Virus record (IMG/VR): IMGVR_UViG_3300033150_000367
Location: 1 to 39,896 of that record
DNA length: 39,896 bases
Origin: a virus
Reading direction: 5' to 3' (one strand)
Part shown: in pieces, positions 17,503 through 39,797 of the stretch
How the letters are laid out: each line of letters opens with the position of its first letter
Position numbering within the stretch: position 1 is the stretch's first letter
Notes under the pieces: generated by a model
The model's database searches: none
The model's input: the letters and a program-made list of their open reading frames with translations, nothing else
What the model was told of the DNA's origin: nothing
Program-made: the position numbers and the translations under genes

Positions 17503-17646
17503 ATGAATAAAGAAGAATTTGAAAAAAAACATCCAAACGCTAAATCAGATATGATGATAGAAGAAGCTATCGCTAGTGCAGAATTGGCAGAAAAAAAAGA
17601 AATTAAAAAACCTAACAATAAAATAAAATGGGAATATCACTACTAG
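17503..17646 (+). CDS. 47-residue hypothetical protein
   Basis: The frame starts one base after the previous stop and begins MNKEEF, like its neighbour. It is charged and helical (IEEAIASAELAEKKE) and its end overlaps the next start by 19 bases. Function unknown. Confidence 0.42.
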   Translation: MNKEEFEKKHPNAKSDMMIEEAIASAELAEKKEIKKPNNKIKWEYHY

Positions 17647-20391: not shown

Positions 20392-20643
20392 ATGAATGAG
20401 AATATAAGAAAACTAGCGGAAAATCAAAAAAAGATAACAGATAAAATACAAGAGATGGGAGCTAAAATTGAATTATTATTAGCAGATCACGAGAATATTG
20501 TTAAGCGACTAGATCGGCACAAGGAGGAGATAAGTGGCATTTGCACAGCCTTAATCGGTGGAAAAATCGTAAATTCAAAGGCTTTGGAATTTCACAAAAG
20601 TTTCAAGGTGGAGAAAGAGGATGAAGAACTTGACAAAAAGTAA
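20392..20643 (+). CDS. Coiled-coil protein before initiator
   Basis: The 83-residue protein is a continuous charged helix for roughly 50 residues (ENQKKITDKIQEMGAKIELL) with a short hydrophobic segment and an acidic end. The -35 of the initiator promoter lies in its last codons. It may oligomerise; function unknown. Confidence 0.6.
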   Translation: MNENIRKLAENQKKITDKIQEMGAKIELLLADHENIVKRLDRHKEEISGICTALIGGKIVNSKALEFHKSFKVEKEDEELDKK

Positions 20644-20658
20644 ATTAGGGAGCATAAT
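20630..20658 (+). promoter_or_regulatory. Promoter of replication initiator leader
   Basis: TTGACA at 20630-20635, 17-bp spacer, CATAAT at 20653-20658. Transcription should begin near 20665, only a few bases before the antiterminator strand of the leader. Confidence 0.8.
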
Positions 20659-20669
20659 GAAGATAAATA

Positions 20670-20722
20670 ATCTTGTGAATTATATCGGCAAACTACTCAC
20701 AAGATGGTTTGCCGATATTTTT
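20670..20722 (+). promoter_or_regulatory. Terminator/antiterminator leader before the initiator
   Basis: A 12-bp perfect stem (20682-20693 with 20707-20718) followed by TTTTT forms an intrinsic terminator. Its loop contains TCACAAGAT (20697-20705), which is perfectly complementary to ATCTTGTGA at 20670-20678, the start of the transcript. The two pairings cannot readily coexist because the linkers are only three, three and one base. The upstream pair would trap one terminator arm in its loop and permit read-through. What triggers the switch is not visible. Confidence 0.78.
20682..20722 (+). terminator. Intrinsic terminator in initiator leader
   Basis: ATATCGGCAAAC (20682-20693) pairs perfectly with GTTTGCCGATAT (20707-20718); T-run 20718-20722. 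It lies 16 bases before the initiator ATG. Confidence 0.88.
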
Positions 20723-20737
20723 ATAAAAATAAAAAGT

Positions 20738-21478
20738 ATGGAAGAAATAAAAATAAAAGACGGATCAGGAGATAAGGAATTTTTTACAATAATACCAAAT
20801 TATATTCTAAATCATTCTACGCATTGGGATAGAGAAGTATATATTCAAATGAAAAGAATTGCTGGAGAAAATGGGAAGTGCTATATGAGCATTCAAAGAC
20901 TTTCAAAAAAATGCGGAATGGGAAAGGAACGATTAAATAAATCAATTAGATATTTAATAAAACACTGTTGGATAAAATTTATGGGGAAAACTCCAATAAT
21001 GACTAAAGGGGGGGAGCAATTAGCCAATACTTATAAGGTGGAAAATATATGGAAATTAAATACTAAATTTTACAAAGGGGGGTCGCCACAGGGATACCCC
21101 CGAAACAAAGGGGGGTCGCCACAGACTCAAAGGGGGGTCGCCAAAACGCCAAAGGGGGGTCGTGCCACGCCTCCTAAGAAGAACCATTTAAAGAAGATCC
21201 ATATTAAGAAGAGAGAAAAAGAAAAAATTCTCCCACAAAAATCAGAAAAATTTATAAAAAAATTAAGAAAGATATTTCCAGAGGGAACAACATTTAGTAA
21301 AAATCAGATTTCGGAGATTAAAAAATTCATATCTTATTGGACAGAACCAAATAAAAGTAAAACAAAATTGAGGTGGGAGTTAGAAAAGACTTGGGACACG
21401 AAACGCCGACTCGGAAATTGGATGAGAAACTGCGATAAATTTAATAAGCCTAATAAATATAAAGCAAAAATGTTATGA
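20738..21478 (+). CDS. Winged-helix replication initiator / helicase loader organizer
   Basis: I choose ATG 20738 (246 residues); an ATG at 20621 would make translation run through the leader's promoter, antiterminator and terminator. The N-terminal domain (FTIIPNYILNHSTHWDREVY; MSIQRLSKKCGMGKERLNKS; IRYLIKHCWIKFMG) is a winged helix typical of phage replication proteins. A Gly/Pro/Lys linker encoded by four iterons follows, then a C-terminal helical domain (FSKNQISEIKKFISYW) recalling replisome organizers. It should bind the iterons and recruit the host helicase, like lambda O (inferred). Confidence 0.83.
   Translation: MEEIKIKDGSGDKEFFTIIPNYILNHSTHWDREVYIQMKRIAGENGKCYMSIQRLSKKCGMGKERLNKSIRYLIKHCWIKFMGKTPIMTKGGEQLANTYKVENIWKLNTKFYKGGSPQGYPRNKGGSPQTQRGVAKTPKGGRATPPKKNHLKKIHIKKREKEKILPQKSEKFIKKLRKIFPEGTTFSKNQISEIKKFISYWTEPNKSKTKLRWELEKTWDTKRRLGNWMRNCDKFNKPNKYKAKML
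21074..21168 (+). repeat. Four phased G-rich iterons, probable replication origin
   Basis: AAAGGGGGGTCG begins at 21074, 21107, 21129 and 21151; the first three continue GCCA, the fourth has TGCCA. Spacings 33, 22 and 22 are multiples of 11 bp, so sites face one side of the helix. The first two extend to GCCACAG. They lie in the initiator gene, as in lambda O. The A-rich downstream stretch (21175 onward, AAGAAG repeats) may be the unwinding region. Confidence 0.82.
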
Positions 21479-23347: not shown

Positions 23348-23356
23348 TTATTCACA
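23348..23356 (+). promoter_or_regulatory. DnaA-box-like site
   Basis: TTATTCACA differs from the consensus at one position. It is 19 bases upstream of the -35 at 23376, the same spacing as at 12110/12138, and both are preceded by AAG. Confidence 0.5.
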
Positions 23357-23375
23357 AGAAGAAGAAATAAAAGAC

Positions 23376-23404
23376 TTGACAAAAGATATAAAATGATATA
23401 GTAT
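23376..23404 (+). promoter_or_regulatory. Promoter of rusA leader
   Basis: TTGACA at 23376-23381; the -10 may be TAGTAT at 23399-23404 (17-bp spacer) or TATAGT at 23397-23402 (15-bp spacer). It is followed by the palindrome ATTACTAAGTAAT (23431-23443) and a terminator-like hairpin before rusA. Confidence 0.72.
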
Positions 23405-23430
23405 TTAAATATGATTATGCAAAAAAATAA

Positions 23431-23443
23431 ATTACTAAGTAAT
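23431..23443 (+). promoter_or_regulatory. 13-bp palindrome, operator candidate
   Basis: ATTACTAAGTAAT is a perfect inverted repeat around a central A, placed about 30 bases downstream of the -10 element and immediately before the rusA leader terminator. A repressor site or roadblock is plausible but no binding protein is identified. Confidence 0.4.
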
Positions 23444-23445
23444 AT

Positions 23446-23486
23446 AGCCTGCGGATAATGCCATTTTTGGACTGCAGGTTTTTGCT
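23446..23486 (+). terminator. Leader terminator before rusA
   Basis: AGCCTGCGG (23446-23454) pairs with CTGCAGGTT (23472-23480) with two G-U pairs, and an inner CCA/TGG hairpin caps it. T-rich sequence runs 23479-23490. The rusA start lies at 23491, so read-through is needed for expression. Confidence 0.75.
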
Positions 23487-23490
23487 TTTT

Positions 23491-23811
23491 ATGAAAATAC
23501 GAATTAAGCCGATGTCAATTAACGAGGCATTTCAGGGGAGAAGATTTAAAACTAAAAAATATAAAGAGTATAGAGAAGAATTATACTATCTGCTCCCGAA
23601 TATGAAAATACCGAAAGGGAAACTGAAAATTGATTTAGAATTTGGATTTTCAAGCAAGAGAAGTGATATAGATAATCCAGTAAAATTATTCCTAGATTCA
23701 TTGAAAGATAAATACGGAATTGATGACAGTATTTTTTACAAATTAAGTATTAAAAAATTAATAACTAGAAAGGGTAAAGAGTTTATAAATTTTAAAATTA
23801 AAAAAATATGA
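23491..23811 (+). CDS. rusA: RusA-family Holliday junction resolvase
   Basis: ATG 23491 gives 106 residues beginning MKIRIKPMSINEAFQGRRFK, the usual RusA opening; an upstream ATG at 23458 is inside the terminator hairpin. R-S-D-I-D-N-P-V-K (57-65) supplies D59 and D61, with FLDSL and DKYGIDDS giving further acidic residues, matching the RusA catalytic pattern. It cuts four-way junctions formed in recombination or before packaging. The stop overlaps the next start. Confidence 0.92.
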   Translation: MKIRIKPMSINEAFQGRRFKTKKYKEYREELYYLLPNMKIPKGKLKIDLEFGFSSKRSDIDNPVKLFLDSLKDKYGIDDSIFYKLSIKKLITRKGKEFINFKIKKI

Positions 23812-38885: not shown

Positions 38886-39053
38886 ATGTTATTATTTTGT
38901 CCAGAATGCAATAATTTAATAAAGAAGACATTTGATAAAAGAGATGAGGGTGAAACGATTGTTTTGACTTGTGATAAATGCAAGTGTAAAATAAGTTATT
39001 ATATAAAATACAAAGCATATTCAAAAATTATAGAAAAAAAACTTGACAAATAA
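38886..39053 (+). CDS. 55-residue zinc-ribbon protein
   Basis: MLLFCPECNNLIKKTFDKRD is followed by ETIVLTCDKCKCKISYYI: two C-x-x-C pairs in the form of a zinc ribbon (C5, C8, C29, C32). The reading frame ends inside the protease promoter. It has an A-rich leader. Function unknown; transcription factor-like ribbons of this kind also bind nucleic acid. Confidence 0.62.
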   Translation: MLLFCPECNNLIKKTFDKRDEGETIVLTCDKCKCKISYYIKYKAYSKIIEKKLDK

Positions 39054-39071
39054 AATACAATGATTTAGAAT
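39043..39071 (+). promoter_or_regulatory. Promoter of protease-capsid leader
   Basis: TTGACA at 39043-39048, 17-bp spacer, TAGAAT at 39066-39071. Transcription should start near 39078 and enters a terminator-like hairpin within 20 bases. Confidence 0.82.
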
Positions 39072-39093
39072 ATAAATAACATTAGAGATTACG

Positions 39094-39134
39094 AAAGCTC
39101 TTATTGGCTCTTATTGCCTCTGAGGGCTTTTTTT
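39094..39134 (+). terminator. Leader terminator before prohead protease
   Basis: AAAGCTCTT (39094-39102) pairs with GAGGGCTTT (39122-39130) including two G-U pairs; T-run 39128-39134. GGC and GCC (39106-39108 and 39116-39118) make an inner hairpin. GCTCTTATTG occurs as an exact tandem repeat at 39097-39116. AGAG at 39084-39087 can compete for CTCT at 39098-39101. Confidence 0.8.
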
Positions 39135-39152
39135 ATTTTTAATTAAAAAACA

Positions 39153-39797
39153 ATGATCACAAAATTGAAAGGAGTTTTAACAAAAAAAGAGGGAGAAATA
39201 TTAGGAATAGCTTCAACGGAAAATCCAGATAGGGACGGAGAAGTTATTAAAATAGACGGATGGGATTTAAAAAATTTCAAAGAAAATCCAGTTATAATGG
39301 CAAGCCACAAGTGGCAAGATTTTCCTATTGGAAAAGCTACAAAAATTGCGATTGAAAAAGGCAAGCTAGTTTTTAGTATGATGCTTTCAGAAGCAACAGA
39401 AGAAGCTAAGAACGCAAAGCAATTAATAAACGAGGGAATATTGAAATCTTTTTCTGTTGGTTTTATTCCGAGAGAAAGAGATGAAAAAAATAACAATATT
39501 ATAAAAGAAGCGGAATTATTAGAGATAAGTTTAGTTTCAATACCAGCCAATCCAAACGCAGTAGTATTAGCAAAAAGTTTGGATGATAATAAAATGGCTG
39601 ATTATATATACAGGGAATTTAAAGATATGATTAAAAAAAGCTCCTCCGAAGTCGGAAACGACAAAAAAAACGGAAAGATAGGGGCTGGTCGAAAAATAGA
39701 TGTAGACGCAGAATTTATGCGTTCAGTAAGGAAAGCAACTGGCGATCTGCAGAATCTATGCAAAGAACTTAAAAAGAAAGGAGGTGCTAAGAAATGA
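39153..39797 (+). CDS. HK97-family prohead protease
   Basis: The 214-residue protein has the U35 serine protease motifs: M-A-S-H-K-W (H52), K-S-F-S-V-G-F (S101) and L-L-E-I-S-L-V-S-I-P-A (E124), with N-P-D-R-D-G-E near residue 24-30. It would cut the capsid delta domain after assembly and then exit the head. A Lys-rich tail (AGRKIDVDAEFMRSVRKATG and beyond) contains the SD of the next gene. Stop overlaps the capsid start as ATGA. Confidence 0.93.
   Translation: MITKLKGVLTKKEGEILGIASTENPDRDGEVIKIDGWDLKNFKENPVIMASHKWQDFPIGKATKIAIEKGKLVFSMMLSEATEEAKNAKQLINEGILKSFSVGFIPRERDEKNNNIIKEAELLEISLVSIPANPNAVVLAKSLDDNKMADYIYREFKDMIKKSSSEVGNDKKNGKIGAGRKIDVDAEFMRSVRKATGDLQNLCKELKKKGGAKK
39778..39786 (+). 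promoter_or_regulatory. Strong Shine-Dalgarno of the capsid gene
   Basis: AAGGAGGTG, complementary to the bacterial anti-SD over nine bases, seven bases before the capsid ATG at 39794 (equivalent to 12). Nearly all other head and tail genes lack a comparable site. Confidence 0.9.

Follow-up and report, generated by a model that had tools for sequence, protein, structure and literature searches.

A candidate transcription attenuator with two competing RNA helices precedes the replication initiator gene of an uncultured tailed phage

Analysed here in full is a stretch of DNA (39,896 bases, 31.7% G+C; hereafter the window) that looks like a complete tailed-phage record; the capsid is of HK97 type, and the ends are joined by a short repeat. 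A capsid profile found no match among genome contigs, so neither a prophage nor a host emerged. A start-codon survey revealed the window's genes to mostly lack a Shine-Dalgarno sequence and to carry an A/T-rich start context. One start context, CAATAAAATAAAATG, is identical before three small genes (at 17616, 18007 and 18325) and has nine near matches genome-wide as against 1.9 expected.

The gene at the centre of this analysis encodes a replication initiator whose ATG, like that of most window genes, is not preceded by a Shine-Dalgarno sequence, and whose interior harbours iterons that form a probable replication origin. Directly upstream lie a promoter, a short leader and a predicted intrinsic terminator (Table 1), the terminator thus being positioned between the promoter and the initiator start codon. 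The first-pass annotation had described a strong promoter followed by a leader of roughly 70 bases with a perfect 12-bp terminator hairpin, a description that closer inspection bore out. The promoter is one of seven TTGACA sites in the window with a 16- or 17-nt spacer and at least 5/6 matches to TATAAT, all on the plus strand and none on the minus strand; 200 Markov sequences contained a mean of 0.53, placing this class beyond expectation. Judging from the -10 element, the RNA likely starts about 7 nt past it, at ~20665.

Table 1 Features of the initiator locus in the window, and late-operon leaders in two relatives.
Feature	Position	Strand	Basis
Sigma-70-type promoter TTGACA-17-CATAAT	20630-20658	+	TTGACA 20630-35, CATAAT 20653-58, 17-nt spacer; aligned TTTACA-17-TATGAT in G001 at equal distance
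Initiator mRNA 5' leader, ~73 nt (likely)	20665-20737	+	Sequence; G001 alignment from promoter to start codon
S1 5' strand AUCUUGUGA, proposed antiterminator helix	20670-20678	+	3/9 pairs compensated in G001, 0 broken
S1 3' strand UCACAAGAU, within terminator loop	20697-20705	+	Complement to the 5' 9-mer; G001 covariation
S2 5' arm of predicted intrinsic terminator AUAUCGGCAAAC	20682-20693	+	Perfect stem, fold; 7/12 pairs compensated in G001
S2 3' arm of predicted terminator GUUUGCCGAUAU	20707-20718	+	Perfect stem, fold, G001 covariation
Short U-run after stem, UUUUU then AU	20718-20722	+	Sequence; terminator scan
Replication initiator, HTH_36 domain, 246 aa	20738-21478	+	Pfam HTH_36 3.2e-9; PHROG replication initiation proteins
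Four iterons AAAGGGGGGTCGCC, spacing 22-33 bp, inside initiator gene	21072-21168	+	Repeat family D1; putative function
Late-operon leader, relative L029	9090-9324		
Late-operon leader, relative L030	5784-5928		

Inspecting the leader revealed two helices whose strands are interleaved along the RNA. The terminator hairpin (S2) comprises 12 bp of 100% complementarity around a 13-nt loop and exceeds every other perfect stem in the genome in length; no such stem with at least five G/C arose in 40 simulated genomes, and the leader RNA as a whole folds with z = -7.4 (0 of 200 shuffles equally stable). Nine of the loop bases, TCACAAGAT, are exactly complementary to a 9-mer near the 5' end of the RNA, ATCTTGTGA, the two being the sole exact copies of this 9-mer in the window, and would form a second helix (S1). 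Nine-base complementarity of this kind, joining the loop to the 12 nt ahead of the stem, arises by chance with a frequency of about 2e-4 (58/300000). While the first-pass annotation was right about this pairing, it took the 9-mer to be the very first bases of the transcript, which probably begins about 5 nt earlier. The leader thus reads ATCTTGTGA ATT ATATCGGCAAAC TAC TCACAAGAT G GTTTGCCGATAT, with linkers of 3, 3 and 1 nt. A search against the Rfam 15 covariance models returned no family at gathering score.

About a dozen relatives were found through their capsid, among them G001 (contig IMGVR_UViG_3300009502_000095, 41,959 bases), whose contig covers the replication region. This distant relative carries a leader (L047, 6604-6710) ahead of its own replication initiator, with a terminator ending 20 nt upstream of the initiator ATG. 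Downstream of a TTTACA-17-TATGAT promoter it reads GCTTTGTGA ATT AGAAGGTAGCAC TAC TCACAAAGC G GTGCTACCTTTT, reproducing the 9-3-12-3-9-1-12 layout of the window; from the -35 element to the start codon, the two phages align with a single 1-nt gap, and the promoter spacing is equal to within 1 nt. Across the 21 base pairs of both helices, 11 are unchanged, 10 are changed on both sides (three in S1, seven in S2) and none is broken. The S1 compensations are A-U/G-C, U-A/C-G and C-G/U-A, the other six of its nine pairs being invariant, and in S2 the changes affect 7 of 12 pairs. Sliding the partners by 1-3 columns as a control yielded at most three such pairs and at most 50% pairing. The G001 leader again folds more stably than its shuffles (z = -4.5). 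Compensatory change in related phages had been set beforehand as the proof of the 9-mer pairing, and non-covarying differences as its refutation: all three 9-mer pairs that differ in G001 are compensated, and there are no non-covarying differences. A further record, L055, carries the leader of G001 with nine mismatches over the overlap and, being nearly identical (the same virus), does not count as independent; covariation of S1 and S2 hence represents only two independent lineages, the window and G001.

The two initiators share their C-terminal part (46%) and differ in their N-terminal domain, so that the DNA-binding part appears to have been swapped beneath a conserved leader. The N-terminal part of the G001 protein (L047, 6710-7363) resembles initiators of Lactococcus and Streptococcus phages.

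We asked whether the leader might itself be translated, with the initiator starting at ATG 20621 or ATG 20657 and the hairpin lying inside the gene or acting via a leader peptide. The initiator frame is indeed open from ATG 20621 through the hairpin, and both upstream ATGs are accompanied by Shine-Dalgarno-like bases. Yet both lie before the predicted RNA start, the initiator frame of the aligned G001 leader is interrupted by TGA and TAG, and the leaders hold no conserved short open reading frame that could serve ribosome-mediated attenuation. Moreover, Lactococcus phage initiators can be aligned with that of G001 starting at residue 1 (52%), which, together with the in-frame stops, argues that the G001 leader is noncoding; the initiator of another relative, L068, begins at a position equivalent to just after ATG 20738 (first residues aligned by eye). 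Given these stops and the relatives' initiator starts, ATG 20738 is likely the true start, and we regard a translated leader as highly improbable.

A harder alternative to set aside is that the repeated 9-mer functions as DNA: a dimeric repressor would occupy two half-sites TTGTGARTW, 21 bp (two helical turns) apart and downstream of the promoter, the hairpin being a separate terminator. The half-sites TTGTGAATT and TTGTGAGTA are present in both phages, their TTGTGA core is invariant, and identical inverted half-sites would co-vary too, so that S1 covariation on its own fits this explanation. A further half-site, TTCTTGTGAATA, stands alone immediately ahead of the RusA promoter (23349-23360). 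On the other hand, neither genome contains a second paired operator, no matching repressor was found, and an independent operator leaves unexplained why the terminator arms keep register with the half-sites in both phages. The G001 stem further contains one G-U pair, which speaks for RNA. This pair and the exact register between arms and half-sites lead us to prefer an RNA element, without amounting to proof, and to consider the operator unlikely.

The hairpin could also just end the transcripts of the upstream operon, or simply stabilise the 5' end, its match to the 9-mer being incidental. The stop codon of the upstream open reading frame (20643) falls about 40 nt before the hairpin and terminator-like hairpins occur elsewhere in the genome, but a strong promoter stands at a conserved position upstream of the hairpin, and both the complementarity between loop and 5' end and its compensation in G001 would go unexplained. 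To us this reading seems less probable still than the operator.

Is the leader RNA then a switch between S1 and S2? Considered in isolation, S1 amounts to -9.3 and S2 to -15.3 kcal/mol in the window (-10.9 and -15.7 kcal/mol in G001). By computation, the two helices, conserved by compensation in both lineages and held in a fixed geometry, also form in a fixed order. S1 is complete with RNA synthesised to 20705, whereas S2 requires its 3' arm to 20718, and ensemble folding of the growing RNA gave S1 a probability of ~1 from the emergence of its 3' strand. With the emergence of 7-8 nt of its own 3' arm, S2 replaces S1 in either leader, at 20 as well as 37 °C. That short linkers make the two structures mutually exclusive, as originally proposed, agrees with this folding behaviour and with the linker geometry of both leaders: we infer exclusion because a 1-nt linker cannot span a 9-bp helix, nor a 3-nt linker a 12-bp helix. 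A full pseudoknot containing S1 and S2 together is ruled out by the same linkers of 3, 3 and 1 nt. RNA polymerase hides roughly the last dozen bases of its transcript, so S1 should still be present when the U-run is reached, and the outcome would then hinge on the speed with which S1 gives way, a property of kinetic attenuators.

We therefore favour, with a fair degree of confidence, a transcription attenuator that acts in cis on the replication initiator gene, with S1 as the antiterminator. RNA polymerase would start at about 20665, and the earliest pairing would be that of the 5' 9-mer with the nine bases in the loop (S1, about -9 kcal/mol), which would hold the 5' arm of the terminator captive in an 18-nt loop. 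If S1 held, S2 (about -15 to -19 kcal/mol) would be blocked and transcription would read through into the initiator gene; if S1 were kept from forming, or were undone while polymerase was still at the U-run, S2 would form and transcription would stop 15-20 nt before the start codon. This scheme presumes real termination with read-through as the default, such that S1 would favour read-through and anything preventing S1 would favour termination. Counting against it are the shortness of the U-run in the window, the six S1 pairs that do not vary, the limitation to two independent lineages and the L068 initiator, which is not preceded by a leader of this kind. Replication is probably throttled by this choice of the leader RNA. 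If so, a ~73-nt RNA would set phage replication in an uncultured group, in an unusually compact design in which the exclusion of one state by the other is topological (loop trapping) and does not depend on a shared arm.

What might tip the balance? G001 has the same linkers as the window (AUU, UAC and G), and the invariant leader bases (UUGUGA, AUU, UAC and G) exceed the needs of pairing, suggesting that a partner reads them; a trans-acting factor (protein, small RNA or ligand) may thus recognise the conserved UUGUGAAUU / UACUCACAA bases. Since terminated leader RNA holds both the 9-mer and its loop complement, the switch might even sense itself, with accumulated terminated RNA pairing with nascent 5' ends, blocking S1 and forcing termination. 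We rate this as a long shot. It would provide replication feedback without an antisense gene, and the specificity code would reside in the outer bases that vary between the two phages (AUC in one, GCU in the other).

Attenuation of initiator genes is classical in plasmids. In pT181, a pre-emptor in the repC leader pairs with the 5' arm of the terminator, and an 87-nt antisense RNA tips the balance (PMC5703833). The likeness is that a terminator directly before the initiator start codon is pre-empted by an upstream leader segment (PMC5703833); in the phage, by contrast, the leader's 5' segment is complementary to the loop of the terminator, the two folds exclude each other topologically, and an antisense promoter was not seen. 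Initiator-gene transcription is likewise cut short in the leader of pIP501 / Inc18 repR, under the control of the antisense RNAIII and the repressor CopR and with leaders of ~320 nt in related plasmids (PMC5703833, PMC4981023), but parts resembling RNAIII or CopR were not found for the phage leader. The shared location before the initiator and the shared logic of termination before the start (PMC5703833, PMC4981023) would also suit antisense-RNA copy-number control, with the leader as target. Yet the leader is far shorter, and the best antisense promoters score 8/12 in the window and 9/12 in G001 at non-corresponding places, leaving this alternative with very little probability. In logic, the initiator attenuators of pT181 and pIP501 come closest, yet the phage leader is not a member of those families.

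Riboswitch-type attenuators choose co-transcriptionally between two exclusive folds, one with a terminator, and have conserved unpaired bases. The phage leader shares the two exclusive folds, the terminator and the conserved unpaired bases, but measures only ~73 nt, matches nothing in Rfam 15 and has no known ligand. In lambdoid antitermination (nut/N, Q, HK022 put), a modified polymerase passes distant terminators. Terminators close behind promoters in phage operons are common to both, but the phage leader is proposed to act as a local RNA switch, and no polymerase-modifying factor was identified. The literature searched, of partial coverage, contained no phage example of initiator attenuation.

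A search with the initiator protein in viral, genome and plasmid collections returned no full-length relative, and an alignment of its C-terminal part recovered L068, L069 and L072. The L068 initiator, the closest one found over its whole length (34% identity), is not preceded by such a leader, and L069 has a different long terminator leader. In Lactococcus and Enterococcus phages with a G001-type initiator, the space ahead of the gene is just 40 nt and 3 nt, indicating that the leader does not travel with this initiator family. An exact hairpin pattern had no match. The core pattern TTGTGAATT-N8..24-TACTCACAA occurred in 14 records, with the leader in G001 and L055 only; the remaining matches are unrelated and have no hairpin arms. 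A covariance model (R1) recovered, among the loci searched, just the window, G001 and L055, and another 25 virus records contained no match; when the leader was compared with phages and plasmids by blastn, only chance matches came back, and a glycosyltransferase alignment led to no new replication region.

The order promoter, leader, terminator and start codon recurs in the window, characterising three operons: those of the initiator (20630-20738), RusA (23376-23491) and the prohead protease and late genes (39043-39153). The minus strand has none, and two weaker cases have poor promoters. Before the RusA resolvase gene, promoter, terminator hairpin with U-run and start codon are closely spaced. 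In the late leader, a strong promoter is followed by a hairpin that has a 10-nt loop, AYUACGAAAG, and overlaps the 5' arm of a predicted intrinsic terminator, and then by the protease ATG. This is a different element, and its loop motif is absent from the initiator leader. Ahead of the protease gene, one or two copies of its hairpin per phage appear in L026, L028-L031, L033, L034, L036, L037, L040 and L041 (two of these leaders in Table 1), and the stem covaries (both sides changed in 13 cells across 12 sequences; 94% paired); the five relatives scanned had no Rfam match. The late leader is probably a separate new attenuator family and perhaps more widespread than the initiator leader.

The initiator of G021 (L077, 6662-6862) also sits behind a promoter and a terminator leader whose sequence differs from that of the window; this leader is long, has a branched loop and folds very stably (-44 kcal/mol). 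Leader attenuation is probably a general control style of this phage group; if true, the initiator and late leaders would point to a group in which leader RNA switches set the timing of both replication and assembly. A candidate regulator is encoded immediately ahead of the late leader (38886-39053): a small zinc-ribbon protein with weak, below-cut-off matches to the ribbons of RNA polymerase RPB9 and TFIIS, which is conserved at this place in the majority of relatives that cover the region.
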